Positions 359 through 15,281 of a stretch of DNA of 16,813 nucleotides are shown here, in pieces. The stretch covers positions 1-16,813 of the forward strand of contig JAPUJL010000289.1 of NCBI GenBank assembly GCA_027296185.1, in the 5' to 3' direction. A program made the translations under genes and the position numbers. The notes under the pieces are model-generated. The model was not told where the DNA came from. It saw only the letters and a list, made by a program, of their open reading frames with translations, and made no database searches. Origin of the DNA: SAR324 cluster bacterium. GTDB taxonomy: Bacteria > SAR324 > JACQKK01. Position 1 is the stretch's first letter. Each line of letters starts with the position of its first letter.

Positions 359-1210
359 CTAGCGTTGCTTCGGCTTCAGGGCTTCGTTGAGGGAGCCGGA
401 GCGGAAGCCGAGCAGATCGAGGGTCACGTAGCGGTAGCCGAACTCCCGAAAGGCGCGGTCGATGGCCTCCCGGTGCTCCAGCACCTTGGGAAAGTCCTCG
501 GGCATTACCTCGATGCGGGCGACGGTGTCGTGGTGGCGCACCCGCACCTGCTCCAGGCCCAGATTCTTCAGAAACCGCTCGGCCTGTTCGATCTGTTCCA
601 AGACGGGCACCGAGATGGAGAGTCCGTAGGGCACGCGGCTGGAGAGGCAGGCCGCCTGGGGCTTGTCCGCGTTGGGCAGGCCCAGGTGGCGGGCCAACTG
701 GCGGATGTCCGCCTTGCCGAAGCCGCAATCGGCCAGGGGGGAGTGTACCCGGTGCTCCTCCGCGGCGGTCAGCCCGGGCCGGTGATCCCCCAGGTCGTCG
801 ACGTTGGTGCCGTTGAGGATCGCCGCTTCGTTGTACCTGCGGGCGATCCCGGTCAAGTCCGAATACAGGGCCGTCTTGCAGAAGTAGCAGCGGTTGGTGG
901 GATTGGCCAGGTAATCGGGGTTCTCCAATTCGGCGGTCTCGATCACCTCGTGCGCCATGCCCCACTGGCCGGCCAGCTCCCGGGTGAGGGCCAGATCCGC
1001 CCGGTTGAGGCTGGGCGAGGCGGAGGTCACGGCCAGCGCCCGCTCCCCGAGCACCCGGTGGGCCAGAAAGGCCACCAGCGAGCTGTCCACACCGCCGGAG
1101 AACGCGGTGACGGCGCGCTCGAATCCACCCAGGTACTCCAGCAAGGCGCCGTACTTCCGCTCCAGCGGCGGCGGGAGCGCTGACTGTTCTTCCGGATGGG
1201 GCGATTCCAT
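359..1210 (-). CDS. larE: LarE-type ATP-dependent sulfur transferase
   Basis: This 283-residue protein belongs to the LarE family, PP-loop enzymes that adenylate and then sulfurate the nickel-pincer nucleotide precursor used by lactate racemase and related enzymes. The ATP-binding PP-loop SGGVDSS is at residues 38-44. The family motifs GTNVDDLGDHRPG (134-146) and KPQAACLSSR (183-192) are present. Three cysteines are visible: C108 and C111 in NRCYFCK, and C188 in ACLSSR. This matches the three-cysteine, [4Fe-4S]-type LarE rather than the single sacrificial-cysteine type. I chose the ATG at 1210; an in-frame start at 1270 would add 20 poorly conserved-looking residues. No clear Shine-Dalgarno precedes either. 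The partners larB and larC are not in the window. A strong promoter-like sequence lies upstream. Confidence 0.88.
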   Translation of the reverse strand: MESPHPEEQSALPPPLERKYGALLEYLGGFERAVTAFSGGVDSSLVAFLAHRVLGERALAVTSASPSLNRADLALTRELAGQWGMAHEVIETAELENPDYLANPTNRCYFCKTALYSDLTGIARRYNEAAILNGTNVDDLGDHRPGLTAAEEHRVHSPLADCGFGKADIRQLARHLGLPNADKPQAACLSSRVPYGLSISVPVLEQIEQAERFLKNLGLEQVRVRHHDTVARIEVMPEDFPKVLEHREAIDRAFREFGYRYVTLDLLGFRSGSLNEALKPKQR

Positions 1211-1573
1211 GGGACTCGAAGCGGAAAAGTGGCCGGGCGGACCCGGGCGTGGGCTCCGCGCCCAACCCAAGGGCGGCGCGAAGGACCTACCGAGAAATAT
1301 ACAGCCGGGTTTCGCGGCCTGTCAAACGGGGAGGCCGGATGGAGGTGACGAATGGCAGGCCGGCCGTGGACAACAGGACCTGTGTCAAGCCCGCGGCGCG
1401 CGCCGGATGGGGGTCCGGGGCGGCCTGAAGCAGGTCACGGGCACGGCCCGCTTGGACAGGGCCCGGCAAAATGATATGGGTGCAAACGCCGTTTCGGCCC
1501 GCCCCGGGACCGATGGTACCGGGAGGGGCCGCAATTGCACTCCGCAGCCCGCCACGCTGACGAGACCGCCGCC
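1211..1573. other. Divergent intergenic region, larE / CoA-ester lyase
   Basis: The region separates larE (minus) from the CitE-family gene (plus). It holds the larE promoter. A weak plus-strand promoter candidate is TGGACA (1453-1458) with TATGGG (1475-1480), 16 bases apart, matching the consensus at 5/6 and 3/6 positions. A small imperfect hairpin, CCGG-ACC-loop-GGT-CCGG, spans 1504-1522. I see no credible gene. Confidence 0.45.
1296..1325 (-). promoter_or_regulatory. Sigma70-like promoter for larE
   Basis: On the minus strand a perfect -35 TTGACA (1325-1320) is followed after 18 bases by a -10 TATATT (1301-1296). Transcription would begin near 1289, leaving about 80 bases of leader before the chosen larE start at 1210. 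It is the best sigma70-type match I found in the window. Confidence 0.6.
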
Positions 1574-1714
1574 GTGACCGACCCGTCTTCCCAGAACCCT
1601 GCGCCCGGCGCCGAAGCCGATCTGAAACGGGAGATCGAGACCCGCCGGGCCGCGGCGCTGGCCCGGCCGGAGCTGTTCGCCGGCGCCCGTGTGCCCTAGT
1701 CCCGGCGCGGGGAA
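1574..1714 (+). pseudogene. Amber-interrupted 5' extension of the CitE-family gene
   Basis: From a GTG at 1574 (or a TTG at 1535 preceded by GGGAGG at 1521-1526) the frame of the downstream lyase reads as normal coding sequence: VTDPSSQNPAPG, then ADLKREIETRRAAALARPEL, then FAGARVP. Third positions are almost all G or C, as in the real genes nearby. A TAG codon at 1697-1699 breaks the frame, after which SRRGE runs directly into the ATG at 1715. The simplest reading is that the native start lies upstream and a nonsense change, for example from CAG, or a base-call error truncated the gene. TAG serves as the ordinary stop of both this gene and larE, which argues against general amber recoding. 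Confidence 0.5.
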
Positions 1715-2848
1715 ATGGCCGTCCCCGCCTTCAAGGCGGATCCCAAGGCTCCCGGCGACAAGGAGGCGGCGCGGGCCTCCAGCCTCAAGCTAATGGAGGG
1801 GCCGATCCGCTTCAAGCCGGACCTGTTTCTCTACGACCTGGAGGATGCGGCGCCGGACAATCCGGAGTTCCGCCCCTGGGCGCGGGAGTTCATCGTCGAG
1901 GCGCTGACCACCCTGCCCTTCCCCAAGGGGCAACTGCGGAGTTTCCGCCCCAACGACATCCGCACCGACGCCTTCGAGGAGGACATCCTGCACGTCCTGC
2001 GCGGGGCGGGACGCTTCGTCGACGTTATCATCGTTCCCAAGTGCCTCTACGCCGCGGACGTAGCCGACATTCAGGAGATCGTGCGCTGGGCGCGGCGGGC
2101 TTTTGCCATCGAGCACAAGATCTGGCTGGAGGTGCTGATCGAGGAGGCCTCGGCGTTCCTGGAGGCGGAGCGCATCGCCGCCCTGGAGGACGTGGGCGCG
2201 CTGCTGTTCGGGGCGCTGGATTTTTCCGGCAGCATCAGCGGCCGCGTGACGCCGGAAACCTGGATGGAGGACACCACCCACGCCCGCCAGGCCCTGCCGG
2301 TCATCGCCGCCGCTCACGGCAAGCACGCCATCGATGCCGTAACGAGCTTCCTTCCCATCACCCCGCGCAACACCACCGGGTTGGAGGAGGAGACGTTCCG
2401 CCGCCTCTGCGCCATGAGCGCCGAGGCCGCCGCGGAGGCGGGAGCGCCGCCGGAGCTGACCGTCCAAATGGAACAGCGGGAGCGCGCCGTGGCCCTGGTA
2501 CGGCGGGACGCGGAAAACGCCCGCCGGATCGGCTACGCCGGGAAGTGGATCCTGCACCCGGGGCAGGTGGAGCCGGTGCAGAACGCCTGGACGCCGGAGC
2601 GGGAGGAGGCTCTGCGGGTGCTCCGGATGGTGGCCGAGTACGCCCGCTCCGCCGAGCGGGGCTCGGGCGCGGAGGTGGTCACGGGCAGCGTGGAGCTGGC
2701 CGACAAGGCGGTGATCCGCAGCAAATTCTGGGACCTGCACCACGCCGTGCGGGCCGGGCGCATCGGGGAGGCGGACATTGCCGCCACGGGCTATACGTGG
2801 GAGCAACTGCAGCGCACCGCCCGCACCCGGGACGAGGGGAGCGGTTAG
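1715..2848 (+). CDS. HpcH/HpaI aldolase / citrate lyase beta (CitE-like) CoA-ester lyase
   Basis: This 377-residue protein (counted from the ATG at 1715) is a member of the CitE superfamily, TIM-barrel enzymes that make or cleave C-C bonds of 2- or 3-hydroxyacyl-CoA esters such as malyl-CoA, citramalyl-CoA or citryl-CoA. Visible motifs are DLEDA (41-45), an R-x-N pair in SFRPN (76-80), the strand IIVPK (105-109), the likely metal and catalytic acidic residues in LEVLIEEA (about 138-145), FGALDF (165-170), and the C-terminal GKWILHPGQ followed by NAWTP, equivalent to the family's GKxxIHPxQ...FTP. The substrate cannot be read from sequence. The ATG at 1715 lies within what should be the first barrel strand, so the native N-terminus is probably upstream and interrupted by an amber codon. 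It converges with the next gene across 34 bases. Confidence 0.8.
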   Translation: MAVPAFKADPKAPGDKEAARASSLKLMEGPIRFKPDLFLYDLEDAAPDNPEFRPWAREFIVEALTTLPFPKGQLRSFRPNDIRTDAFEEDILHVLRGAGRFVDVIIVPKCLYAADVADIQEIVRWARRAFAIEHKIWLEVLIEEASAFLEAERIAALEDVGALLFGALDFSGSISGRVTPETWMEDTTHARQALPVIAAAHGKHAIDAVTSFLPITPRNTTGLEEETFRRLCAMSAEAAAEAGAPPELTVQMEQRERAVALVRRDAENARRIGYAGKWILHPGQVEPVQNAWTPEREEALRVLRMVAEYARSAERGSGAEVVTGSVELADKAVIRSKFWDLHHAVRAGRIGEADIAATGYTWEQLQRTARTRDEGSG

Positions 2849-2882
2849 CCGGCGGGGCCGGGGAGCCGGGAGAATGGGAGAC

Positions 2883-3551
2883 TCAGCCTTCCAGGGGCTC
2901 GAGATCGTCTATCTTGTCCTGCGCCTTCTCCGGAGAAAGCTCCCCGTCCTCGATGCCCTGCTGGATGGTCTCCAGCTCCTCCTGGCGGGCGTGGACGGTC
3001 TGCTCGCCCTCGGCCATGGCCTCCTTGGCCGCGGCGTATTCCGCCTCGGCCTTGAATCCGGCATCCTCGCGGAGAAAGGCGTTCTTGGTATCCATGTAGG
3101 TCACGAAGGGCTCGGAGTTGCGAAGGATTTCCACGCGGTCCCGGTACGCCACGACCGAGGCCGTATCGGCAGGGTCCACCGGAGACTCGCCGATCTGCTG
3201 GATCTCCTGCTGCAGCGACGCCCCCGCATCGAAGGGGTATTTCTTCATCAACTCGCCGAGCAGGGTCAGCGTATTGTTCAGCCGCCGACGGGTGCGCAAC
3301 AAAAATTCCTCCGGTGCCAGGCTGTGCCCGGCGGAATGTTGAAACCGGCGGATATCGACTCCGTTGAAGGCGAAGGCCCCGGAGGATTGCAGGACGTTGA
3401 GCTGCTCCTGCTTCTCCTCGCTGGTAAGCTCAGCCATCGCCTCGAGGGTGCTCATCAGGCCGCTGAAGTGCTCCAGCAGACTGCGGTTGTCCAAGAGCAG
3501 CAACTCGAGGTTGGCCTTGGTCGTCGAGAGTGCGTCGAGATCTTCCGTCAT
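2883..3551 (-). CDS. Hypothetical helical, acidic protein
   Basis: I do not recognise this 222-residue protein. It is acidic, rich in Glu, Gln, Leu and Ala, and appears almost wholly alpha-helical. The C-terminal third (about 160-215) looks like coiled coil, with dense EAEYAAAKEAMAEGEQ and RQEELETIQQGIED stretches. There is no signal peptide, no membrane segment and no obvious catalytic motif. The start is well supported: GAGGTG lies 7 bases upstream of the ATG on the minus strand, and GC3 is high throughout. It stands alone between a convergent lyase gene and a divergent DUF423 gene, so context gives no function. A structural or adaptor role is only a guess. Confidence 0.7.
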   Translation of the reverse strand: MTEDLDALSTTKANLELLLLDNRSLLEHFSGLMSTLEAMAELTSEEKQEQLNVLQSSGAFAFNGVDIRRFQHSAGHSLAPEEFLLRTRRRLNNTLTLLGELMKKYPFDAGASLQQEIQQIGESPVDPADTASVVAYRDRVEILRNSEPFVTYMDTKNAFLREDAGFKAEAEYAAAKEAMAEGEQTVHARQEELETIQQGIEDGELSPEKAQDKIDDLEPLEG

Positions 3552-3708
3552 ACCTGCACCTCAAAGTGGCGGAGCCGGGGCCTTCCGCCGGCCGGAGCGA
3601 TGGCCCGGCCCCAAACGCGGCGGCGAGCCCGAGCCACTGTTCGGATCGTCGCGCCCGTCGCACGAGGTTACGCGCCGGTCATGCTAAGCCCAACGAAGAA
3701 TCCAGCCG

Positions 3709-3720
3709 ATTGGCGCCAAT
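3709..3720. repeat. 12-bp perfect palindrome
   Basis: ATTGGCGCCAAT is a perfect 12-base palindrome in the divergent intergenic region. It could be a dimeric regulator site or part of the adjoining repeat element. Sequence alone does not decide. Confidence 0.35.
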
Positions 3721-3729
3721 GAGATTTTT

Positions 3730-3790
3730 CAGCCGGCTGCGCCGCCCCCGCGGCGGGCTCAGTACAGGGCCCAGTACAGGTCTGAGAATG
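3730..3790. repeat. Degenerate REP-like element
   Basis: The element contains the palindrome CAGCCGGCTG (3730-3739), a CCGC...GCGG inverted repeat around 3742-3755, two copies of CAGTACAGG (3760-3768 and 3772-3780), and the tail tctgagaatgac. The GCTCAG and GAATGAC pieces match the general form of intergenic REP-like elements seen again at 13579-13725. Confidence 0.4.
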
Positions 3791-3868
3791 ACAAACCCAA
3801 AGCGCCCGGCCGCGATGGACAATTTTCAAGCTCGGGCTCACAATTCACCATCTCCACGGGAATCGACC

Positions 3869-4252
3869 ATGTCAAGAATCTGGCTGATCTGGGCGGGGGC
3901 CTTGGGGGCGTTGGGGATCGCCTTGGGCGCCTTCGGCGTCCACGCGCTGCGGCCGGTGCTGCCCTTGCAGACGATGACCGTCTTCGAGACGGCGGTGCGC
4001 TATCACCTCTTCCACACCCTGGCGCTGCTCGGCGTGGCAATCCTGATGGGGCAATATCCCGATCGGGCGCCGGCCCTGCGGTGGGTGGCGCTGCTGCTCC
4101 TGGCGGGGCTCGTGCTCTTCTCGGGCAGCCTCTACGCCCTGGCCACCACGGGCGTGGGATTCTTCGGCTGGATCACGCCCTTCGGCGGCGCCTGCTGGAT
4201 CGCCGCCTGGCTCGGCCTGGCGTGGAGTTTTCGGCGGAACCGAGGCGGTTGA
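3869..4252 (+). CDS. DUF423 family small integral membrane protein
   Basis: This 127-residue inner-membrane protein matches the DUF423 (YgdD-like) family, whose biochemical role is unknown. The sequence shows the family's typical N-terminus, in which a first helix ending in GALGIALGAFGVHAL leads into an amphipathic stretch with FETAVRYHLFHTLALL (about residues 44-59). A further helix follows near ALRWVALLLLAGLVLFSGSLY. The C-terminal part has GWITPFGG (about 101-108) and a last helix. In all there are four hydrophobic segments and a positively charged C-terminus (RRNRGG). The ATG at 3869 was chosen because upstream in-frame sequence is repeat-derived; only a weak GGGAA precedes it. A hairpin overlaps the stop codon. 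Confidence 0.85.
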   Translation: MSRIWLIWAGALGALGIALGAFGVHALRPVLPLQTMTVFETAVRYHLFHTLALLGVAILMGQYPDRAPALRWVALLLLAGLVLFSGSLYALATTGVGFFGWITPFGGACWIAAWLGLAWSFRRNRGG

Positions 4253-4261
4253 GGAACCGCC
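4244..4261 (+). terminator. Hairpin overlapping the DUF423 stop
   Basis: GGCGGTT (4244-4250) pairs with AACCGCC (4255-4261) around a GAGG loop, overlapping the TGA stop of the DUF423 gene. No T-run follows, so it is at best a weak or factor-assisted terminator. It sits between two convergent genes. Confidence 0.35.
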
Positions 4262-4289
4262 GGCAGACGCCGGACATCGTGCCCAAAAA

Positions 4290-4604
4290 TCAATCGGAGT
4301 CGAGCGGACAGTAGTAGACCCGATACTTGAATTGGCCCGCCAGTAGGATCGAATCCACAATAATCCGGTTTCCGCCCAGCCGCGCTGCTTTGTTCCGCGC
4401 CTTGACCGTTCGGGGATCGCCATCTGGGGAAACGCCGGTCCCCGATGCTTTAATGGTGCCCAGCTCCTCGCAATCGTTCAAGGCTCGAGGCAATTCGACC
4501 AACAGCACCTTCTCGCCTTCGAGTGTGAGTGCGATATGGGGCCGCCCACACGCCGCCAGGCCGATGGCTACTCCAATTATCGAAGCGAACGTTCCGATGT
4601 TCAT
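4290..4604 (-). CDS. Small DUF4156-like lipoprotein
   Basis: This roughly 104-residue protein has a hydrophobic N-terminus ending in a lipobox, L-A-A-C, with the acylated cysteine at residue 19. That predicts an envelope lipoprotein. The mature part has a DCEELG turn, then ARNKAARLGGNRIIV and a final YYC, the layout of DUF4156/RcsF-like lipoproteins (C-x2-LG ... ARN-x-AA-x-LG-x-N ... Y-x-C), with the cysteines possibly forming a disulfide. The n-region lacks the usual Lys or Arg, which weakens the signal-peptide call. The ATG at 4604 is supported by GGAAGG 7 bases upstream; an in-frame TTG at 4619 has no such support. It lies 57 bases beyond the mutase stop and could be co-transcribed with that operon, but its function is unknown. 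Confidence 0.6.
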   Translation of the reverse strand: MNIGTFASIIGVAIGLAACGRPHIALTLEGEKVLLVELPRALNDCEELGTIKASGTGVSPDGDPRTVKARNKAARLGGNRIIVDSILLAGQFKYRVYYCPLDSD

Positions 4605-4661
4605 ATGGCCGCCTTCCAATCCAGCGCCGTTGGGTTAGTACACTTCCGGTCTCGGGGCGAT

Positions 4662-6362
4662 TCAAAATACCGGGTTCTCGCGGTAGGTGCCCCAGAGGTC
4701 TTTGAGTGCCTCGACGATTTCCCCCATGCTCGCCTTGGCCTTGACCAGCTCGATGGTGACGGGCATCACGTTCTCCGATTCGTCCCGGGCGACGGCCTTG
4801 AGCCGTTCCAGCAGTTGGGCGACCTTGCCGTTGTCCCGCTCCTTGCGCACCCGCTGGAGATTGGCGATCTGCCGCCGCGCTGTCTCCGGGTCGTAGGGGT
4901 GGAGCTCGATGTCCTGCCGCTCGTCCGGGTCCACGTACTTGTTGACGGCGATGACCGGCTTGTCGCCGCTGGCCTTGCCAAGGGCCGTCTGGTAGGCGAA
5001 GTCGGCAACCTGCTGCTGAAACCAGCCCTCCTCGATCAGCTTGATCGTGCCGCCGTTCTCCTCGACGTAGTCGACGATCTTGAAGATTTCCCGCTCGTAG
5101 GTGGAGGTGAGATTCTCCAGATAGTAAGAGCCGCCCAGGGGATCGATCACATTGGTGACGTTGGTCTCGTCGGCGATGATCTGCTGGGTGCGCAGCGCGA
5201 TCCGCATGGCCTCCTCGGTGGGGATGGCGAAGGCCTCGTCCATGCCGTTGGTGTGCAGGCTCTGGGCACCGCCCAGCACCGCCGCCAATGCCTGAAGCGC
5301 GGTGCGCACGACGTTGATCTGGTACTGGGGCTTGGTCAGGCTCGCCGCGGCGGTCTGGCAATGGAAGCGCAGCCGCATGGATTCGGGCCGTCGGGCGCCG
5401 AAGCGCTGTTTCATGATCTTGGCCCACACCCGCCGGGCGGCGCGGAACTTGGCGATCTCCTCGAAGAAATCCGCCTGGCTGACGAAGTAGAAGGCCAGCC
5501 GCGGCGCGAACTCGTCCACGTTCATGCCGGTTTTTACCACCTCCTGCACGTAGGTCAGGCCGTTGCACAGGGTGAATGCCGCCTCCTGCAGGGGCGAGGC
5601 GCCGGCCTCGGAGATGTGATAGCCGGAGATGTTGATCGGGTTGAAGCGCTTCATGCCGCGGGCGCAATAGGTGATGCAGTCCCGCACCAGGCGCACCGAC
5701 GGGCGGATGGGGAAGATCCACTCCTTCTGGGCGATGTACTCCTTCAGGATGTCGGCCTGGATGGTGCCCGACATCTTGTTCGGGTCGTGGCCGCGCTTCT
5801 CGCCCAAGGCCACGTACATGGCCAGCAGGATCCAGGCGGTGGGGTTGATGGTCATCGACACGGAGATGTTCTCCAGGTCGATGTTGTCGTAGAGCGCCTC
5901 CATGTCGTCCAGCACGTCGACGCTCACCCCCTCCCGCCCCACCTCCCCCTCGGAGCGGGGATGGTCGGAGTCGTAACCCATCAGCGTGGGCATGTCGAAA
6001 TCGGTGGAAAGCCCGGTCTGACCCTGGGCAATGAGGTAATGGAAGCGGCGGTTGGTGTCCGCGCCCGTGCCGAAGCCGGCAATCTGGCGCATGGTCCAGG
6101 GCCGTCCGCGGTACATCGTGGGGTAAGGGCCGCGGGTGTAGGGGTATTGGCCCGGCAGGCCGATATCCTCGAGAGGAATGTCCGCCACGTCCAGGGCGGT
6201 ATACACGCGCTTCACCGGAATGTTGCCGGCGGTGCGGAATTCCGCCTTGCGCTCGGGCTGGCGATCGAGGAAGGCGGCCAGCTCGTTCCGCTCCCACTCG
6301 GCGATCTGCTGCTCGAGTTCTTCCAGGGCCATGCCGTTGAGGGCCTGCTTGGGCTCGATCAT
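4662..6362 (-). CDS. hcmA: 2-hydroxyisobutyryl-CoA mutase-type acyl-CoA mutase, large subunit
   Basis: This 566-residue protein is the substrate-binding TIM-barrel subunit of a coenzyme B12-dependent acyl-CoA mutase, without a fused cobalamin domain. Family motifs are RGPYPTMY (77-84), RPWTMRQ (87-93), GTIQADILKEY (199-209) and ISGYHISEAGA with H249. The diagnostic positions are not those of methylmalonyl-CoA mutase. The substrate Tyr (Y89, Propionibacterium numbering) is Ile94, the next substrate-pocket residue is Asp121 in LSTDFD, and the carboxylate-binding Arg207 is Gln212. Ile and Asp at these positions are the known signature of Aquincola 2-hydroxyisobutyryl-CoA mutase (I90, D117), and the terminal WGTYRENPVF also looks like that family. 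The reaction is 2-hydroxyisobutyryl-CoA <-> 3-hydroxybutyryl-CoA. GAGGTG lies 7 bases before the ATG. It is the last gene of the operon, 17 bases after meaB. Family membership is near certain and substrate assignment strong. Confidence 0.9.
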   Translation of the reverse strand: MIEPKQALNGMALEELEQQIAEWERNELAAFLDRQPERKAEFRTAGNIPVKRVYTALDVADIPLEDIGLPGQYPYTRGPYPTMYRGRPWTMRQIAGFGTGADTNRRFHYLIAQGQTGLSTDFDMPTLMGYDSDHPRSEGEVGREGVSVDVLDDMEALYDNIDLENISVSMTINPTAWILLAMYVALGEKRGHDPNKMSGTIQADILKEYIAQKEWIFPIRPSVRLVRDCITYCARGMKRFNPINISGYHISEAGASPLQEAAFTLCNGLTYVQEVVKTGMNVDEFAPRLAFYFVSQADFFEEIAKFRAARRVWAKIMKQRFGARRPESMRLRFHCQTAAASLTKPQYQINVVRTALQALAAVLGGAQSLHTNGMDEAFAIPTEEAMRIALRTQQIIADETNVTNVIDPLGGSYYLENLTSTYEREIFKIVDYVEENGGTIKLIEEGWFQQQVADFAYQTALGKASGDKPVIAVNKYVDPDERQDIELHPYDPETARRQIANLQRVRKERDNGKVAQLLERLKAVARDESENVMPVTIELVKAKASMGEIVEALKDLWGTYRENPVF

Positions 6363-6379
6363 CGACTTACACCTCGTCT

Positions 6380-7348
6380 TCAGGGCTCGGACTTCAGGGC
6401 GGCGATCAGCTCCGTGGCGGCGGTGTGGGGGTTGAGCTCCCGGGTCACCACGCGCTCGATGAGGGAGGATACCTTGCCGTCGTGCTGCTTTTCAAACCGG
6501 TCGTGCAGAATATTTTCGGCCGTCTTCAGCATGCGGGTGCGTGCGATGACGCGGCGGCGGCCCTCCATCTCGCCGGAATCGTCCAGGGTGCGGCGGTGGC
6601 GGTCGATGGCGGCCAGCAATTCCCCGATGCCTTCCCGCTTGGCCGAGCTGGTGGCCAATACCGGAATCTGCCACGCGGATTCTCCGCGCAGGGCGAAGCC
6701 CAGGGTGAGCATGGACTTGAGCTCCTTGAGGGTCTTGTTGGCGTCGGGGCGGTCGCACTTGCTCACCACGTGAATGTCGGCGATCTCCATCACCCCCGCC
6801 TTGATGGTCTGAATATCGTCGCCCAGCCCCGGGGCCGATATCACGACGATGGTGTGGGCCGCGCGAACGATGTCGATCTCGTCCTGCCCCACCCCCACCG
6901 TCTCGATGAGAATCAGGTCGAATCCGCCCGCATCGAGCAGGTCCACGGCTTCGTGGGTGGCCCGGGCCAGTCCCCCCATCGCGCCGCGGGTGGCCATGCT
7001 GCGGATGAACACGCCCGGGTCCAGGCTCAACTCGTTCATGCGGATGCGGTCTCCGAGGATCGACCCGCCGGAGAAGGGGCTGGAGGGATCGACGGCGATC
7101 ACGGCGATCTTGCGCTCCGATTTGCGCGCTTCCAGCACCAGTTGGTCCAGCAGGGTGGATTTGCCGCTGCCCGCAACCCCCGTGACCCCCACCACGTGCG
7201 CCCCGCCGGTGCGGCGGTAGATTTGCTCCAGCGCCGGGCGGCATTCGGCTTCGCCCGCCTCCACGCGGCTGATCAGCCGGGCGATGGCGCGGGGCTTGCC
7301 GGCCAGCACGGGCTCGACGAGATCCAGGGAAGAAACGGCGGCGGGCAT
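6380..7348 (-). CDS. meaB: MeaB/ArgK-type G-protein chaperone of the mutase
   Basis: This 322-residue P-loop GTPase is of the MeaB family, which loads adenosylcobalamin into and protects B12-dependent acyl-CoA mutases. Visible motifs are Walker A GVAGSGKST (57-65), the family-specific AVDPSSPFSGGSILGDRIRM (85-104), the switch/Walker B region ETVGVGQDE (149-157), and the guanine-specificity loop SKCD (196-199). The last departs from the usual N/TKxD by having Ser first. The C-terminal helical arm (about 260-322) has the expected dimerisation-type composition. It lies between the two mutase subunits, 45 bases after the small subunit and 17 before the large one, so it very likely serves this mutase (a MeaH-like role). 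No clear Shine-Dalgarno precedes the ATG, so translational coupling is possible. Confidence 0.9.
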   Translation of the reverse strand: MPAAVSSLDLVEPVLAGKPRAIARLISRVEAGEAECRPALEQIYRRTGGAHVVGVTGVAGSGKSTLLDQLVLEARKSERKIAVIAVDPSSPFSGGSILGDRIRMNELSLDPGVFIRSMATRGAMGGLARATHEAVDLLDAGGFDLILIETVGVGQDEIDIVRAAHTIVVISAPGLGDDIQTIKAGVMEIADIHVVSKCDRPDANKTLKELKSMLTLGFALRGESAWQIPVLATSSAKREGIGELLAAIDRHRRTLDDSGEMEGRRRVIARTRMLKTAENILHDRFEKQHDGKVSSLIERVVTRELNPHTAATELIAALKSEP

Positions 7349-7393
7349 GGGCGGGGTCGCTCGAGCGGAAAGGGTTGAGTGGGCAGGCGGCGC

Positions 7394-7810
7394 TCAGCGG
7401 GGCCCGCGCGCCTCGACCAGCCGCCGCACCGCGTCGACGATGGCCTGGGGCGGCGTATCCTGGAGCAGAACTTCGGCGACGCCGATTTCCTTCAGCGCCC
7501 CCACGTCCTCGTCGGGCATGACGCCGCCGCCCACGAGCAGGATGTCCTCCGCCTCGTGTTGTTTGAGCAGGTCGATAACCTTGGGAAATACGGTCATGTG
7601 GGCGCCGGATAGGATGCTGATGCCGAGGATGTCCACGTCTTCCTGCACCGCGGCGGCCACGACCTCCTCCGGGGTGCGGTGCAATCCGGTATAGATCACG
7701 TCCATCCCGGCATCCCGCAGGCAGCGCGCGACGATCTTCACGCCCCGGTCGTGGCCGTCCAGGCCGACTTTGGCGATCAACACCCGGATCACGTTGGAGG
7801 GTACGGTCAT
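7394..7810 (-). CDS. hcmB: Acyl-CoA mutase small, B12-binding subunit
   Basis: This 138-residue protein is a stand-alone cobalamin-binding domain. The base-off, His-on motif DGHDRG lies at 18-23, with H20 the predicted lower cobalt ligand. The supporting SxL motif (S65-I-L67, in GISILSGAH) and the GGGVMPDED loop near the C-terminus complete the B12 fold. Its length matches separately encoded small subunits, about 135-140 residues, of 2-hydroxyisobutyryl- and isobutyryl-CoA mutases. It should pair with the large subunit encoded downstream in the same operon. It starts 37 bases after the ThDP-enzyme stop. No obvious Shine-Dalgarno precedes the ATG. The domain by itself does not report substrate; that comes from the large subunit. 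Confidence 0.9.
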   Translation of the reverse strand: MTVPSNVIRVLIAKVGLDGHDRGVKIVARCLRDAGMDVIYTGLHRTPEEVVAAAVQEDVDILGISILSGAHMTVFPKVIDLLKQHEAEDILLVGGGVMPDEDVGALKEIGVAEVLLQDTPPQAIVDAVRRLVEARGPR

Positions 7811-7847
7811 GGGCGGATCGGCCGGTGGGCGGCGATGGGGACCGGCT

Positions 7848-9500
7848 TCAGGCCAGCCACGCGTAACGGGAGGAAAACGGCCGGGCCGCCGGGTCGATCG
7901 CCACGCTGATCAGCGCGGGCTCGGGCGATCCGATCTCGGCCTTCAGGGCGGCGCTGAGCTCGTCCGGCGTTTCGCAGTAATAGCCCTTGCCGCCGAACGC
8001 CTCCATCATCTTGTCGTAGCGCAGCCCGGGCGAGAAGACCTGCACGGGCGGCGGGCCGTCTTCGGGAAGTTCCGGCACGCCGCTGCCGATGCCGTTGTTG
8101 TTGAAGATCACCCAGGTGATGGGAAGCTTGTAGCGCACCGCCACTTCCACGTCCATGCCGCTGAAGCCGAAGGCGCCATCGCCCATCAGCGCCACCACGG
8201 GCGTCTCCGGGTGCGCCACCGCGGCGGCGAGGGCGTATCCGACCCCCACCCCCATGGTGCCCCAGCTGCCGGCGTCCAGGCGATGCCGCGGCCGGTAGTT
8301 CTCCAGGATCGCGCGGCTGATGTCCATGGTATTGGCCCCCTCGGCGATCACGATGGCCTCCTGGGGCAGGGCGCGCTGCAGCTCCATCAGGGGCCGGTAG
8401 TAGCCCATTGGCACGTCGCCGGATTCCATCAGAGGCTGCAGGTTGCCCCGGTTCTTTTCCAGCTCTCCCGCCAGCGCGGTCCTCCAGGGGCCTTTCGGAT
8501 CGCACTGCCAGGGCGCCTCCTCCAGCCCCGCGGCGATCTGGGCCATGGCGGTCTTGGCATCGGCGGCCAGGCTCACCGCCAGCGGAACGTTGGTGCCCGT
8601 GTCGTCCGGGGCGATATCGATCTGGATCACCTTCACGTCCGCGCTGTAGCGGGGCGGCAGGCCGAAGTGCATCATCCAGTTGAAGCGCACCCCCACCGCC
8701 AAAATCACGTCCGCGTTTTTCAGGGCGTAGCTGCGCGCCGCGGCGATGCTGCCCGGATGATCGTCGGGGATTACCCCCTTGCCCATGGGCGATGGGAGGA
8801 ACGGGATTCCCGTCCGGTCGGCGAAGTGGCGCAGTTCGGGAGCGGCATCGGCCCAGGCGGCTCCCTTGCCCACGATGAGCAGCGGCCGCTCGGCCCCCCG
8901 CAGCAACGCCAGCGCCTCGTCGATGGCCGCCGGGTCCGCGCCGGGGCGGGGCGGGGGCTCCACCCGCTCGGCCGGCTCCAGATGGTCCTCGTCGGCCATG
9001 CCGTTGATCACGTCCGCCGGCACGTCCAGATAAACCGGCCCCGGGCGGCCGTGCCACGCCTTGCGCACGGCCTGGGCCACCAGCCGTGGAATTTCCTCCA
9101 CCCGCGTGGCCTGCCCCACCCACTTGCAGAAGGGCCGGGCCGCGTCCAGCTGAGGCGCGTCCTGGAAGGCGCCCCGGTGGCTGTGCCGCCGGTCGGCGGA
9201 ACCGCTGATCAGCAGGAACGGCCAGCAGTTGGCCCAGGCGTTGCCCAGAGCCGTCACGGCGTTGGTCATCCCCGGACCTGTAATGGTCAGCGCGGCGCCC
9301 ACATGGCCCCGCAGATAGGAGATGGCCTGGGCCGCGAAGCCCGCGGTCTGCTCGTGCCGGGTGCCGATGTAGCGCAGCCCCTGCTCCTGGGCCTGGTAGG
9401 CGATCTCCGTGACCGGAAAGCCCACCACCCCGAATAGCTCTTGGAGCCCCTGATCCTTCAGGGAGCGCGCCACCAACGCGGCGCCTTTGATTTCCGCCAT
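7848..9500 (-). CDS. ThDP-dependent 2-hydroxyacyl-CoA lyase-like enzyme
   Basis: This 550-residue thiamine diphosphate enzyme belongs to the oxalyl-CoA decarboxylase / 2-hydroxyacyl-CoA lyase branch. The N-terminal Pyr domain shows FGVVGFPVTEIA (23-34) and the ThDP-activating Glu in RHEQ (48-51, E50). A central domain follows, and the C-terminal PP domain has the ThDP/Mg motif GDG (440-442) through NNN (467-469). The C-terminus ends in SSRYAWLA, closer to the F-x-W-L ending of 2-hydroxyacyl-CoA lyases than to the SGR-containing tail of oxalyl-CoA decarboxylases as I recall them. The likely reaction is 2-hydroxyacyl-CoA <-> ketone or aldehyde + formyl-CoA. As first gene of an operon with a 2-hydroxyisobutyryl-CoA-type mutase, acetone + formyl-CoA is the favoured pair. 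The start ATG at 9500 opens just before the Pyr domain; the upstream in-frame extension looks non-coding. Oxalyl-CoA decarboxylase remains the main alternative. Confidence 0.82.
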   Translation of the reverse strand: MAEIKGAALVARSLKDQGLQELFGVVGFPVTEIAYQAQEQGLRYIGTRHEQTAGFAAQAISYLRGHVGAALTITGPGMTNAVTALGNAWANCWPFLLISGSADRRHSHRGAFQDAPQLDAARPFCKWVGQATRVEEIPRLVAQAVRKAWHGRPGPVYLDVPADVINGMADEDHLEPAERVEPPPRPGADPAAIDEALALLRGAERPLLIVGKGAAWADAAPELRHFADRTGIPFLPSPMGKGVIPDDHPGSIAAARSYALKNADVILAVGVRFNWMMHFGLPPRYSADVKVIQIDIAPDDTGTNVPLAVSLAADAKTAMAQIAAGLEEAPWQCDPKGPWRTALAGELEKNRGNLQPLMESGDVPMGYYRPLMELQRALPQEAIVIAEGANTMDISRAILENYRPRHRLDAGSWGTMGVGVGYALAAAVAHPETPVVALMGDGAFGFSGMDVEVAVRYKLPITWVIFNNNGIGSGVPELPEDGPPPVQVFSPGLRYDKMMEAFGGKGYYCETPDELSAALKAEIGSPEPALISVAIDPAARPFSSRYAWLA

Positions 9501-9743: not shown

Positions 9744-10013
9744 CTACTCCAGCACGAAGGTGACGCGGCGGTTGGACTTGCCCTTGTTCTCCGCCTTGGT
9801 CAGGGTGAGGCGGCCGATCTCGCCCAGGCGGGCCACATGACACCCGCCATCGGCCTGCACGTCGAACCCGACGATCTCCACCAACCGGATTTCGGCCAAC
9901 TGGTGGCGGAATTCCGTCTCCAGTTTGAACAGCTCGGGCCGGGCCAGGGCCTCGGCGGTGCGTCCGATCGCCGTCCGTGTGCCCAACCAATGACGAAACT
10001 CGGCGCATGTGGG
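9744..10013 (-). pseudogene. 5'-truncated alanyl-tRNA editing (AlaX-like) gene remnant
   Basis: The frame is open from just after an in-frame TGA at 10014-10016 to the TAG at 9744, giving 89 codons. The translation is the C-terminal half of the second additional (SAD) domain shared by AlaRS, ThrRS and stand-alone AlaX editing proteins. It contains IRLVEIVGFDVQ, then ADGGCHVARLGEIG, then KAENKGKSNRRVTFVLE, matching the family's CGGTHV-x2-T-x-EIG and KGKxNRR pattern. The N-terminal part with the HxxxH zinc motif is absent. The usual C-G-G-T-H reads D-G-G-C-H, so one zinc ligand is also changed. No ATG or good ribosome site starts the fragment; a TTG at 9986 is the only near candidate. The missing half is replaced by the nfeD upstream region, pointing to a deletion. 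Confidence 0.6.
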
Positions 10014-10048
10014 TCAACCGATGCCTTGGCTGGGTCTCCTGATCGTCG

Positions 10049-10068
10049 GATTGCGCAAAGCCGCAATC
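10049..10068. promoter_or_regulatory. Inverted repeat upstream of nfeD
   Basis: GATTGCG (10049-10055) and CGCAATC (10062-10068) form a perfect 7-bp stem around CAAAGC, 45 bases before the nfeD start. It could be an operator or leader hairpin. No clear -35/-10 pair accompanies it. Confidence 0.3.
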
Positions 10069-10112
10069 TGATCTATGGAGAAGTCGGGGGAAGCCGATCC
10101 TCCCTCGTCGAC

Positions 10113-10616
10113 ATGGATATCGACACGACAGTTTGGATTTGGATTGTCGCCGGCGCGCTGCTCATGCTGTCGGAGACCGTCATCCCCGGGGGCGTGGTCG
10201 TCTTCGTGGGCATCGCCGCGGTGCTGGTCGGATTGGCACAGTTCCTGAGATGGCTGGAAGGGCCGTTTGAATCGTTCACCGTCTTCTTCGTGTTGTCCAT
10301 CGTTCTGCTGCTCAGCCTGCGGGGCCTCGTCAGTCGATTCTTCCCGGGAGACACCAGCTATCAATCGCCGGACGAGGACGCGGAAGCCGCCGGGTCGCTG
10401 GTGGACGTGGTCGAAACGGTGAGCGAAGGTAGCACCGAGGGCCGGATCCATTTTCGCGGCACGAGTTGGCCCGCCACTTGTGTGGAAGGTTCCATCTCCC
10501 GCGGACAGCGGGCGATTATCGTGACCCGCGACAATCTCATCTGGATCGTGGAACCCGCGCAGAATGCCCTGGCGATCGACCGCGGCGAAGAGGACGAACA
10601 GAACAGCGGCCACTGA
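10113..10616 (+). CDS. NfeD family membrane protein
   Basis: This 167-residue protein is a short (NfeD1b/YbbK-partner type) NfeD protein, the usual genetic partner of SPFH-domain membrane scaffold proteins. Hydrophobic segments cover about residues 7-25, 28-43 and 50-70 (IWIVAGALLMLSE; VVVFVGIAAVLVGLAQF; TVFFVLSIVLLLSLRGLV). A cytosolic OB-fold domain follows from about residue 95, with VETVSEGSTEGRIHFRGTSWPA and a closing RGQRAIIVTRDNLIWIVEP, typical of the family. The ATG at 10113 begins directly before the first helix. It lacks an obvious Shine-Dalgarno, so the exact start is uncertain. Two SPFH genes follow in the same direction after 121 and 63 bases, forming the expected nfeD-SPFH operon. 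Confidence 0.85.
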   Translation: MDIDTTVWIWIVAGALLMLSETVIPGGVVVFVGIAAVLVGLAQFLRWLEGPFESFTVFFVLSIVLLLSLRGLVSRFFPGDTSYQSPDEDAEAAGSLVDVVETVSEGSTEGRIHFRGTSWPATCVEGSISRGQRAIIVTRDNLIWIVEPAQNALAIDRGEEDEQNSGH

Positions 10617-10737
10617 ATTTCGCGAATCGGAATCTCCGGCACGCCCGAGCCTCGTATTCAGTCGATCGGCACGTCCATCGTGCAGTTGGTTGGGCTGGCC
10701 GCAGAAGTGAAACCCGTATTCCGAGGCAAAGAAGACC

Positions 10738-11682
10738 ATGGACCTATTGACGCCCATTACGATCGTCCTGTTGGTTGGGTTGGTCGTCCTCTGGAAGATG
10801 TTCATCGTCGTGCCCATGCGGGAGGCGGTGATCAAGGAGCGGTTGGGAAAGTTCACGGGGGTGCTCAGTCCGGGATTCCATTTTCTATTGCCGATTTTTG
10901 ACAAAATTGCCTACCGCCATGAGATGCGGGAGCAGGTGATGGACGTTCCGGTCCAGACCTGCATTACCCGGGACAATATTCAGGTCGACGTGGATGGGAT
11001 CGTCTACCTCAAGGTGATGGATGCCGAAAAGGCCAGCTATGGCATTCAAGACTATCGCCGGGCCGCGGTGAATCTGGCCCAGACCACCATGCGTTCGGAG
11101 ATCGGCAAGATCGAGCTGGAGCGCACCTTTTCTGAGCGGGATGCGATCAACGAGAACATCGTGCGGGAGATCGACATCGCTTCAGATCCCTGGGGCATTA
11201 AGGTGTTGCGGTACGAGATCAAGAACATTACCCCGCCCCCCCGGGTGATCGAGACGCTGGAGAAACAGATGGAGGCGGAGCGAACCAAGCGGGCCGAAAT
11301 CACGATGGCCACCGCCGATAAGGAGAATCTGATCAACCTGTCTGAGGGTGAACGGCAGGAGGCCATCAACGTTTCCGAAGGCGAAATGGAAAAGCGGGTC
11401 AATGAGGCCAATGGCCGCGCCCGCGAAATATCGCTCTTGGCGGAAGCCACTGCCTTTGGGGTGACCCGGGTGGCGGAATCCATCCAAAAGCCCGGCGGAC
11501 TCCAGGCGGTCAAGATGCAGATTGTCGAGCAGTTCATCGAGGAATTCGGGAAAATCCTCCAGTCGGCGAATGTATCGGTCGTGCCCGCTCAACTGGCCAA
11601 TATCAAGGGATTCTTCGACGGTATCGGGCGGGTCACCAGCGGCATTCCGGAGACCGACGGTGCGCTGGAGAAACAGTCCTAA
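10738..11682 (+). CDS. SPFH/Band 7 (stomatin/QmcA-like) protein 1
   Basis: This 314-residue membrane-anchored SPFH protein of the QmcA/stomatin-like group forms oligomeric scaffolds that organise membrane microdomains and often regulate proteases together with NfeD. An N-terminal membrane helix (about 7-24) is followed by the SPFH core. The core has VIKERLGKFTGVLSPGFHFL (about 32-51), DVPVQTCITRDNIQVDVDG, KASYGIQDYR, the conserved QTTMRSEIGKIELERTFSERD, and WGIKVLRYEIKNITPPP. A long coiled-coil arm then shows 11-residue periodicity built on SEGE units. The C-terminus ends in a variable tail. It is nearly collinear with the next gene, an obvious paralogue. A weak GAAGA precedes the ATG. Confidence 0.92.
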   Translation: MDLLTPITIVLLVGLVVLWKMFIVVPMREAVIKERLGKFTGVLSPGFHFLLPIFDKIAYRHEMREQVMDVPVQTCITRDNIQVDVDGIVYLKVMDAEKASYGIQDYRRAAVNLAQTTMRSEIGKIELERTFSERDAINENIVREIDIASDPWGIKVLRYEIKNITPPPRVIETLEKQMEAERTKRAEITMATADKENLINLSEGERQEAINVSEGEMEKRVNEANGRAREISLLAEATAFGVTRVAESIQKPGGLQAVKMQIVEQFIEEFGKILQSANVSVVPAQLANIKGFFDGIGRVTSGIPETDGALEKQS

Positions 11683-11745
11683 AGCCCCACTGATGGCTTG
11701 TATATTAACGATCGGTGACGGCTAGCTACCTTTGGAGGGAACGTT

Positions 11746-12696
11746 ATGGAACTGCTCGGTTACACCATCTTCGATGTCTTCAACATGGTGGTATGGGGGT
11801 TTCTGTTTCTGATCCTGCTTGTCCAACTCATTCGCGCCATGAGGATCGTGCCGGCCCAGAAGGCATACATCGTGGAACGGCTGGGTAAATACAAATGCAC
11901 CCTCGACCCCGGATTTCATCTGCTGATTCCATTCCTTGACACGGTAGCATTCATTCAAGACCTGAGGGAGGAGTCCATCACCGTACCTCCCCAGGAATGC
12001 TTCACGAGCGACAACGTCCAGGTCGAGGTGGACGGTATGATTTACATCAGCCTGGTCAATCCGGTGAAAGCAAGTTATGGCGTGACGGATTACCGCACCG
12101 CGGCAATCCAACTCTCCCAGACCACCACCCGTTCGGTGATCGGCACCCTGAATCTCGACCGCACCTTCGAGGAGCGCGATTTGATCAGCTCCCAGATCAT
12201 CAACGTCTTGGCGGATGCCGGCGAAGCGTGGGGCATCCGGGTGCATCGTTACGAAGTGAAGAATATCGTGCCGCCGCCCACGGTCAAGAACGCCATGGAA
12301 CTGCAGGTGACCGCCGAGAGAGAACGCCGCGCGATCGTGGCCCGCTCGGAAGGCGAGAAGCAAAGCCGTATCAACCGTTCCGAAGGGCTGAAGATGGAGC
12401 TGATCAACAAATCCGAAGGGGAAATGCAGCGCCGCATCAACGAAGCGGAAGGAAAGGCCAAGGAAATTAGGGCCATCGCCGAGGCGACGGCGAATTCCGT
12501 CGAGGTGCTCGGTCAGGCCATCAATGCCAGAGGGGGTGAAGAGTCGGTGAGATTGCAGTTGAGCCTCAAGTATCTCACCCGGTTGTCCTCGCTGGCTAAC
12601 GACCGGACTCATATCCTGCTGCCGGTGGACTTGACCCGGGTCGAGGATCTGCTCGCGTCGCTGGGGCTCAGGTCCGATTCCGCCGAAGGCAAGTGA
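11746..12696 (+). CDS. SPFH/Band 7 (stomatin/QmcA-like) protein 2
   Basis: This 316-residue paralogue of the preceding SPFH protein has an N-terminal helix (about 12-30) and then VERLGKYKCTLDPGFHLLIPF, SDNVQVEVDGMIY, QTTTRSVIGTLNLDRTFEERD and WGIRVHRYEVKNIVPPPTV. The coiled-coil arm is exceptionally regular: SEGEKQSRINR, SEGLKMELINK, SEGEMQRRINE, AEGKAKEIRAI and AEATANSVEVL follow one another as five consecutive 11-residue units. The start is firm, with GGAGGG at 11734-11739 six bases from the ATG. A TATATT at 11701-11706 in the 63-base gap could be an internal -10 but lacks a -35. Two paralogues beside one NfeD suggest a hetero-oligomeric scaffold, in the manner of HflK/HflC, though these are not HflK/HflC orthologues by motif. 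Confidence 0.92.
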   Translation: MELLGYTIFDVFNMVVWGFLFLILLVQLIRAMRIVPAQKAYIVERLGKYKCTLDPGFHLLIPFLDTVAFIQDLREESITVPPQECFTSDNVQVEVDGMIYISLVNPVKASYGVTDYRTAAIQLSQTTTRSVIGTLNLDRTFEERDLISSQIINVLADAGEAWGIRVHRYEVKNIVPPPTVKNAMELQVTAERERRAIVARSEGEKQSRINRSEGLKMELINKSEGEMQRRINEAEGKAKEIRAIAEATANSVEVLGQAINARGGEESVRLQLSLKYLTRLSSLANDRTHILLPVDLTRVEDLLASLGLRSDSAEGK

Positions 12697-13901: not shown

Positions 13902-14345
13902 TCAGTCGCCCGCTTCCGCCTCCGCGCCGAGGCCGGCGAAGAACTTGTCCGCCATTTGCCGGGAAATACCGCCGATCATGCGCTGGCCCACACGGGCGAT
14001 CAATCCCCCGATTTGCAGATCGCCGGAATAGGCCAGGCGGGTGGTGCCGCCCTCCGCTACCAGCCGCACCTGTCCGGTGCCCTTGACGAACCCCGGCTTG
14101 CCCGATCCTTCGATGCTGAGGGTATAGCCCTCGTTGGGCCGCTTCTCGCTCAGGGCCAGTTTGGCCTGGTAGGTGCCCTTGATCGGCCCGATGCGGATGG
14201 TCAGCACCGCCGCGTAGGCGTCGTCCCCGGCGGGTTCCAGGGAGTCGCAGCCGGGCAGGTGCTTCGCGATGACCGCGGGATCGTTCAACATCTCCCACAC
14301 CCGCTCGACGGGGGCATTAATGGAAAACTCGCCTTCCAGTTTCAC
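13902..14345 (-). CDS. coxG: CoxG family (SRPBCC) carbon-monoxide-dehydrogenase accessory protein
   Basis: This 147-residue protein is a START/SRPBCC-fold CoxG protein, which accompanies molybdenum hydroxylases of the CO dehydrogenase/xanthine dehydrogenase class. CoxG has been linked to membrane anchoring or quinone delivery for CODH. Family features are the opening KLEGEFSINAPVERVWEMLNDP, then HLPGCDSLEP (about 29-38), IGPIKGTY (about 52-59), and GTGQVRL followed by YSGDLQIGGLIARVGQRMI. Members often carry a C-terminal membrane helix; this one stops shortly after KFFAGLGAEAEAGD and lacks it. The start is a GTG with a weak GGAAA upstream. It is 69 bases after coxM and is the last gene of that minus-strand operon. 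Confidence 0.85.
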   Translation of the reverse strand: MKLEGEFSINAPVERVWEMLNDPAVIAKHLPGCDSLEPAGDDAYAAVLTIRIGPIKGTYQAKLALSEKRPNEGYTLSIEGSGKPGFVKGTGQVRLVAEGGTTRLAYSGDLQIGGLIARVGQRMIGGISRQMADKFFAGLGAEAEAGD

Positions 14346-14414
14346 GACGTTTCCGATTGGTGCTCGAACGGCGGATTGGGGACGGCTCCCCGCGAACCTC
14401 CGCTCGTGCCGCGG

Positions 14415-15266
14415 TCAGACCCTTGCGCCCTCGATGGCGCGGCGGGTAAAGACCTTGGCCAGGTGCAACCGATACTCCGGCGAGGCGTTGAGCGGATCGC
14501 CCAGGGGATCCTTGGCATCGCCGGCCACCTGCTCCGCCGCGGCGGCGATCGCCCCATCGTCCAGCGCCTTGCCGGCCAGCGCCCGCTCCACCGCGACCGC
14601 CCGGAACGCCGTGGGCGATACGCCCGTCACCCCGACCCGCGCGCCGGTGCAATTGGCTCCGTTCATCTCCAATGCGACGGCCACCCCCACCACGGCGAAG
14701 CCCGAGGCCTGCTGGGCCATCTTGGCGTAGCAGGTGTTTCTGCCCGTGGCGATCACGGTGATCCGCACCAGAATCTCGTCCGGCTCGATTGCGGTGGTCA
14801 GCGAATCCACCAGGAAGTCCTTGATGGCGACCGTGCGCTCGCTTTTGCCCTGCAAGGTGAGCTGGGCATCCAGGGCCACCAGCGCCGCGGGCAGGTCCGC
14901 GGACGGATCGTTGTGGACGACGCTGCCGCCGAGGGTGCCCCGGTTCCGTACCTGGACGTCCCCCACCGCCGCCGCCGTCTGCGCCAGCAGCGGGCACTTG
15001 TCCAACACCGTCTTCGAGCTTTCCAGCTCGTAATAGGTGGTGCCCGCGCCAATGGTCAAATTACCGCCGGATTCGGAGAGGCCCTTCAGCTCGCCCACCT
15101 TGCGCAGATCGATGAGATGCTTCGGCGCCGCCAGGCGCAGCTTCATGATGGGGATCAGGCTCATCCCACCCGTGACGATCTTCGCGTCGTCGCCATACTG
15201 ACCCAGCAGCGTCACCGCTTCCTGCAGGGAGGCGGGCGCATGATATTCGAACGATTCCGCATACAT
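14415..15266 (-). CDS. coxM: Molybdenum hydroxylase FAD-binding (CoxM-like) subunit
   Basis: This 283-residue medium subunit of a CO dehydrogenase/xanthine dehydrogenase-family enzyme passes electrons from the iron-sulfur subunit to FAD and on to an acceptor. The first FAD-binding motif is VTGGMSLIPIMKLR (31-44) and the second is RGTLGGSVVHNDPSADLPA (109-127), both intact. The C-terminal domain follows from about residue 170. The start is firm, with AGGGAGGAA about 8 bases before the ATG. It begins 15 bases after the large-subunit stop, so the two are co-transcribed. The 2Fe-2S small subunit (CoxS) is not in the visible operon and may lie beyond the right edge. Confidence 0.92.
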   Translation of the reverse strand: MYAESFEYHAPASLQEAVTLLGQYGDDAKIVTGGMSLIPIMKLRLAAPKHLIDLRKVGELKGLSESGGNLTIGAGTTYYELESSKTVLDKCPLLAQTAAAVGDVQVRNRGTLGGSVVHNDPSADLPAALVALDAQLTLQGKSERTVAIKDFLVDSLTTAIEPDEILVRITVIATGRNTCYAKMAQQASGFAVVGVAVALEMNGANCTGARVGVTGVSPTAFRAVAVERALAGKALDDGAIAAAAEQVAGDAKDPLGDPLNASPEYRLHLAKVFTRRAIEGARV

Positions 15267-15281
15267 GACCGGTTCCTCCCT

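Follow-up and report, generated by a model that had tools for sequence, protein, structure and literature searches.

Activation of acetone by formylation has so far been proposed for a few sulfate reducers (PMC7888143). For Desulfococcus biacutus and its relatives, the proposed route joins a ketone and a one-carbon (C1) unit into a 2-hydroxyacyl-CoA that is rearranged to a 3-hydroxyacyl-CoA (PMC7888143, PMC8084838); the formylating step was not demonstrable in extracts of D. cetonica (PMC7888143). A second described system is the operon type of Aquincola tertiaricarbonis (hcmB, hcl, meaH, hcmA), which encodes 2-hydroxyisobutyryl-CoA mutase (HCM). Here we describe a four-gene operon from a SAR324 cluster bacterium that carries a putative thiamine diphosphate (ThDP)-dependent 2-hydroxyacyl-CoA lyase (HACL) gene together with genes for an HCM and its chaperone. 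It lies in a 16,813-nucleotide stretch of DNA that was analyzed at its full length and is referred to below as the window. We lean slightly toward reading the operon as a ketone-activation module, in which the lyase and the mutase would act on either side of 2-hydroxyisobutyryl-CoA.

The operon occupies positions 4662-9500 of the minus strand, and its genes are separated by gaps of 37, 45, and 17 bases, just as the original prediction had placed them. Families were assigned using NCBIfam profiles and comparison with PDB sequences. The first gene (7848-9500, minus strand) encodes a 550-aa ThDP-dependent 2-hydroxyacyl-CoA lyase/synthase (HACL/S) of the HACL1/HACL-S type, assigned from its best PDB matches and its residues. 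Its open frame extends to 9695; the start at 9500, which aligns with relatives, was chosen. Next come HcmB, the 138-aa B12-binding small subunit of HCM (7394-7810, minus strand; best PDB match 4r3u chain C, 201 bits), a 322-aa MeaB/MeaH-type G-protein chaperone of the mutase (6380-7348, minus strand; TIGR00750, 333.5 bits, above the cut-off), and HcmA, the 566-aa large subunit (4662-6362, minus strand; assigned from 4r3u chain A, residues, and a tree). Third-position GC is 0.88-0.91 across these genes, consistent with coding frames, and the four are presumably co-transcribed. The window is one contig (C211) of a 2.73-Mb genome (G000) in 547 contigs, estimated as 73.6% complete with 2.1% contamination.

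Both residues and phylogeny support the mutase as an HCM that is predicted to isomerize 2-hydroxyisobutyryl-CoA. The best PDB match of HcmA is 4r3u chain A (Aquincola HcmA, 950 bits), versus 450 bits for human methylmalonyl-CoA mutase (MCM), and the protein is 74% identical to A. tertiaricarbonis HcmA (AtHcmA). An alignment of 122 mutase rows (rows with <420 aligned residues were dropped, some genes appear twice, and an F/A/Q row of L038 aligns poorly) places I94, D121, and Q212 at the substrate positions, and the HCM-type residues claimed by the original prediction are thus present. The combination I/D/Q occurs in 52 rows, including AtHcmA, F/A/Q in 38, Y/A/R in 31, and L/D/Q in one (L052), which is placed within the HCM clade. 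We take I90 and D117 of HcmA, in role and numbering, to be HCM substrate residues. In a tree of 86 sequences (a quick method, run without bootstrap), the window HcmA falls within a 77-row HCM clade that includes AtHcmA (SH-aLRT 100). The proposed phylogenetic comparison with characterized HcmA therefore places it on the AtHcmA side, away from MCM and the F/A/Q mutases. Within this clade it belongs to a 13-row group (97) with the HcmA of G006, a genome from a second genus of the same family, and eleven of P0002-P0014. The B12 domain is on the separate small subunit HcmB, as in HcmAB mutases. A role as MCM in propionate metabolism is rejected for this protein on the basis of I94 and Q212, which replace the MCM Y and R. 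The genome encodes a second mutase on contig C233 that is Y/A/R, like human MCM, and fragments of a further PF01642 protein (a third mutase) are found on contig C383.

The ThDP enzyme is supported as HACL/S type by Q113 and by the missing residues of oxalyl-CoA decarboxylase (OXC), which bears out the predicted HACL-type assignment as far as sequence can. The closest solved structures are 8vzk, 8vzj, 8vzd, 8vzc, and 6xn8 (592-549 bits; 592-581 for the first three), versus 445-413 bits for OXC structures (2q27, 445) and 213 bits for AcHACL (7pt1). Identity is 48% to TbHACL/S and ApbHACL/S, 42% to Escherichia coli OXC, and 29% to AcHACL. The first four structures are CfhHACL/S, DhcHACL/S, TbHACL/S, and ApbHACL/S, for which aldehyde condensation was measured (PMC11271303); 8vzk, 8vzj, and 8vzd are mostly deposited as oxalyl-CoA decarboxylase. 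The catalytic Glu of the HACL/S type is present (E50), and Q113, R152, R256, R272, R396, and I471-G472 correspond, at a constant offset of 4, to the catalytic and CoA/ADP residues described for HACL/S (PMC11271303). The key position is tabulated as Gln in HACLs and Glu in OXC (PMC13327070). In ApbHACL/S this is residue 117, which is written variously in PMC11271303, as Q117 in PMC13327070, and as Q in the PDB chain. The Tyr-Glu (E121) and Y483 of OXC (O. formigenes numbering) are missing from the lyase: where E. coli OXC reads YE, the lyase reads F112-Q113, and its NNNGIGSG loop, GIYRG in E. coli OXC, contains no Tyr. Judged from the sequence, the helix segment with the catalytic E493 and the long C-terminal lid of AcHACL are also absent (loop NNNGIGSGVPELPEDGPPP, chain end WLA). 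The residue in the GFP loop (F/Y/I) does not distinguish HCM-linked from unlinked lyases.

Profile scores and phylogeny are less decisive for this enzyme. The lyase passes the NCBIfam OXC model NF006721 by four bits (561.1 versus a cut-off of 557), so the automatic name would be oxalyl-CoA decarboxylase, and misses TIGR03254 (531.9 versus 739.4). In a 43-row tree, from which 9 of 52 rows (mostly near-duplicates) were left out, 30 HACL/S-side rows, including TbHACS and ApbHACS, are separated with support of 100/100 from 13 others: AcHACL-like enzymes, three frc-neighbored enzymes of the window's taxonomic family, and G048. E. coli OXC, whose long branch drew a flag from the program, joins inside the 30-row side at a fork that is not resolved, and OXC is thus not excluded by the tree alone. 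Grouping with OXC had been named beforehand as refuting the prediction; the residues speak against it, and the tree leaves E. coli OXC at that fork.

The operon lacks hcl, the gene usually found with HCM, whose ligase acts on free 2-hydroxyisobutyrate. Among 45 named HCM loci (L035-L079, chosen from 80 retained), hcl is beside the mutase genes in 37; a contig end cuts near those genes in four loci, and hcl is present in 37 of the remaining 41. The loci without it comprise L036, L039, L058, and L074, which are cut by contig ends, and L038, L049, L060, and L078, which are covered. Whole-genome searches for seven of these eight (not L036) gave no match at E<=1e-60 for L038, L060, L074, and L078; L039, L049, and L058 have hcl elsewhere in the genome, L058 with one good match and a weak one. 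Neither hcl nor frc has a match within the window. Genome-wide searches of G000 and G006 gave no hcl match at E<=1e-20, a threshold at which 25 of 58 genomes matched, all except G015 through relatives at 24-35% identity. G015, from the same order and another family, has the canonical HcmB-hcl-MeaB-HcmA. Given no hcl in G000 and G006, free 2-hydroxyisobutyrate activated with CoA is not an evident feed for the mutase; mainly for this reason, we prefer a lyase that makes 2-hydroxyisobutyryl-CoA to activation of the free acid.

Two other genomes with HCM and no hcl match have settings of their own. At L038 (1-11680), an hcl-free HcmB-MeaB-HcmA follows a 1088-aa open reading frame (ORF) that is partly like a GTPase and partly like a mutase (IcmF-like); further upstream is an ORF 28% like AcHACL, maybe an acetolactate synthase. 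In a Chloroflexi metagenome-assembled genome (MAG; G083), where hcl has no match at E<=1e-60, HCM and a 56% HACL are encoded on different contigs. In L177 (6703-13988), ~4 kb separates the HACL from a mutase of the F/A/Q type; the other contig has HcmB-HcmA without hcl or MeaB.

The order HACL-HcmB-MeaB-HcmA is repeated in G006, with identities of 67, 77, 70, and 79%, and none of eight proteins tried from the window flanks had a match in the initial 30 kb of that G006 contig. With the same order in a second genus and unlike flanks, the pairing of HACL with the HCM trio is more than chance. Across ten genomes of the family (G000-G009), lyases of >=60% identity were identified in G000, G006, G002, and G001, and I/D/Q HcmA in G000 and G006. 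The G002 lyase is 99.8% identical to P0127 (SAR324 cluster bacterium), and that of G001, named oxalyl-CoA decarboxylase, matches P0134 (Candidatus Lambdaproteobacteria MAG) at every one of 552 residues. We accordingly place the window in SAR324/Lambdaproteobacteria, two names for one lineage.

In the route that we propose, HACL/S would use ThDP to condense a short carbonyl compound with formyl-CoA into 2-hydroxyisobutyryl-CoA; the most likely substrate is acetone, and butanone may be another. HcmAB, kept active by MeaB and adenosylcobalamin, would then move the thioester group to give 3-hydroxybutyryl-CoA, which could be converted to acetyl-CoA by beta-oxidation-type enzymes encoded elsewhere in the genome. 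The genome has seven PF02737 matches (three strong), one formate-tetrahydrofolate ligase match, and 12 matches to PF02515 (family III CoA-transferase), none nameable from these as formyl-CoA transferase. Acetone may also come from C3 alkane oxidation. PF02332 (the propane/phenol-type monooxygenase family) had no match in five genomes, a result that is uninformative given that control genomes were equally silent. Isopropanol is another possible acetone source (PMC7888143), and short-chain alkane oxidation has been linked to SAR324 in a report whose relevant passages do not mention acetone (PMC7368058). The lyase-mutase module of the original prediction is thus upheld in its enzyme classes and in its pairing in a second genus; acetone, the formyl-CoA supply, and the direction are inferred. 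More tentatively, SAR324 may possess a route independent of those of sulfate reducers and actinobacteria, in which a HACL1-type synthase and a B12 mutase would convert ketones (possibly aldehydes, with lactyl-CoA going to 3-hydroxypropionyl-CoA) and C1 units to 3-hydroxyacyl-CoAs. To our knowledge, formyl-CoA elongation-and-rearrangement pathways are otherwise known as synthetic designs only.

Several observations weigh against a ketone-activation module. The sister genus represented by G002 has LarE-222 aa-DUF423-HACL in the window order and orientation without the mutase trio (L132 2139-5976, the counterpart of window positions 359-9500), and its only mutase match is of the Y/A/R type. The lyase can therefore apparently serve without HCM, the trio having been either lost in G002 or inserted in the window's line. 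Outside the family (flanks of 1.5 kb per side, less in two; E 1e-170 and 1e-150; <=3 candidates per genome), 400 genomes of G083's phylum yielded 12 HACL loci and 385 genomes of G066's class yielded 6, none with HcmB or HcmA beside HACL. Conversely, a window-like HACL is beside HCM in none of the 45 HCM loci, where the nearest ThDP genes are AcHACL-like. No 3-hydroxybutyryl-CoA dehydrogenase was recognized among the window's scanned genes, nor any formyl-CoA source within the window, and absences from G000 carry little weight because that genome is 73.6% complete. Finally, HACL/S prefer aldehydes and the AcHACL-type enzymes (HICL/S) prefer ketones (PMC11271303), the window lyase lacks the AcHACL E493 segment, RuHACL has a Michaelis constant (Km) for acetone of >1 M (PMC7176365), and HACL1 enzymes are expected to be restricted on ketones (PMC13327070). 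It is this preference of HACL/S for aldehydes, with the RuHACL value for acetone, that keeps our leaning toward ketones slight and an aldehyde alternative alive.

The module may act on aldehydes rather than ketones, which we regard as unlikely. In assays with C1-C3 aldehydes that included the top PDB matches, C2 was the preferred chain length of most HACL/S relatives (PMC11271303). The HCM of B. massiliosenegalensis has a side activity with lactyl-CoA, but this is called promiscuous and new-to-nature (PMC11599936). Also unlikely is a role in degradation, in which 2-hydroxyisobutyryl-CoA from an unrecognized ligase or CoA-transferase would be partly cleaved to acetone and formyl-CoA and partly isomerized to 3-hydroxybutyryl-CoA. 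AcHACL works in this direction in Actinomycetospora (PMC7176365), and the genome has the 12 family III CoA-transferase matches; however, the usual HCM partner hcl has no match in either genome with the operon, which weakens the degradation of 2-hydroxyisobutyrate to acetone that had been offered as an alternative use. We consider it distinctly unlikely that the lyase belongs to another pathway, of the kind that cleaves longer 2-hydroxyacyl-CoAs in alpha-oxidation, in which case its place next to HCM would be due to regulation in common or to the trio having inserted there by chance. Long chains are preferred by RuHACL and human HACLs (PMC8760513) and G002 retains the lyase in the same setting on its own, but the unit is intact in two genera with unlike flanks, and hcl was found in neither. 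That the ThDP enzyme is an OXC with chance neighbors, as the NF006721 score, the names of the G001 homologue and several top PDB chains, and the tree fork would allow, is highly improbable and is rejected not on the tree but on residues (F-Q in place of Y-E, no Y483), with TIGR03254 missed, and because it differs from the OXC-like loci that other HCM genomes carry (L158-L168), which are 58-62% identical to E. coli OXC (the window lyase, 42%) and have frc in the flank in 7 of 11, a gene without a match in the window.

Genes around the operon were also annotated. On one side are a LarE-type sulfur transferase (359-1270), an HpcH/HpaI (CitE-like) lyase (1715-2848) that is not matched in the LarE-bearing stretch of G002, and a 222-aa protein (2883-3551) with no Pfam or NCBIfam match, whose counterpart beside LarE and DUF423 in G002 is 40% identical. 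On the other side, an NfeD-like gene and two Band 7/SPFH genes (9837-12696) are divergent from the operon. Further on, the minus strand (13902-16811) encodes CoxG and two subunits of a molybdenum hydroxylase, one the FAD subunit and the other CoxL-like and truncated; these scored below NCBIfam cut-offs.

If a ketone-activation module is indeed encoded, acetone formylation would extend to an uncultured lineage, and acetone would become ordinary cell fuel via a pathway hidden by automatic names (oxalyl-CoA decarboxylase and methylmalonyl-CoA mutase). The operon is compact, at four genes, and members of its lyase's family have been purified and crystallized (PMC11271303), making the formylation chemistry directly testable. 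For C1-based synthesis of either 3-hydroxybutyrate or 2-hydroxyisobutyrate, it also supplies a lyase and a mutase that are paired in nature.

Compared with the D. biacutus cluster, the operon has in common a ThDP enzyme with a two-subunit B12 mutase, and D. biacutus likewise has no hcl ligase (PMC7176365); a MeaB-type GTPase is reported for D. cetonica, and related proteomes have been published (PMC7888143, PMC8084838). The parallel drawn in the original prediction thus holds at the level of the pathway, but not of the enzyme types. The D. biacutus ThDP protein has 685 aa and its mutase is RcmAB-like (PMC7176365), as known from their description, whereas the window has a 550-aa HACL1-type lyase and an HcmAB-type mutase, so we place the window outside that cluster. 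That cluster, whose hosts are sulfate reducers, also holds a 3-hydroxybutyryl-CoA dehydrogenase and further genes; the window has four tight genes.

The mutase portion resembles the A. tertiaricarbonis-type operon, given the high identity of HcmA and the shared families of HcmB and MeaB. Membership in that operon type is rejected for lack of hcl, and in the window a HACL gene heads the operon. AcHACL-type lyases also act on 2-hydroxyisobutyryl-CoA, and AcHACL-like lyases were identified in 11 of the 45 HCM loci; unlike the window, ten of these have hcl and the eleventh is cut. These loci (L036, L037, L042, L044, L047, L048, L061, L063, L072, L073, and L079) are from Pseudomonadota, Rokuibacteriota, Acidobacteriota, Chloroflexota, Actinomycetota, and one other bacterium, and their lyases are 41-73% identical to that of L048. 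The lyase is on the opposite strand in L047 and ~5 kb away in L072, and AcHACL is the best PDB match for L048 and L063. In Mycolicibacterium ELW1, ibc cluster 2 is described as combining a ligase, mutase, and auxiliary protein with a thiamine pyrophosphate (TPP) lyase (PMC13188929); the window has no ligase. The lyase itself shares catalytic residues with CfhHACL/S, DhcHACL/S, TbHACL/S, ApbHACL/S, and RuHACL (8vzk, 8vzj, 8vzd, 8vzc, and 6xn8), which, in the sections of the literature that describe them, were studied for C1 elongation of aldehydes with no mention of a mutase operon. We met no record, in the portions of the open-access literature covered, of a HACL1-type lyase sharing an operon with HCM. 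Gene sets that combine a lyase and a mutase have already been published; new here is a HACL1-type lyase heading an hcl-free HCM operon.

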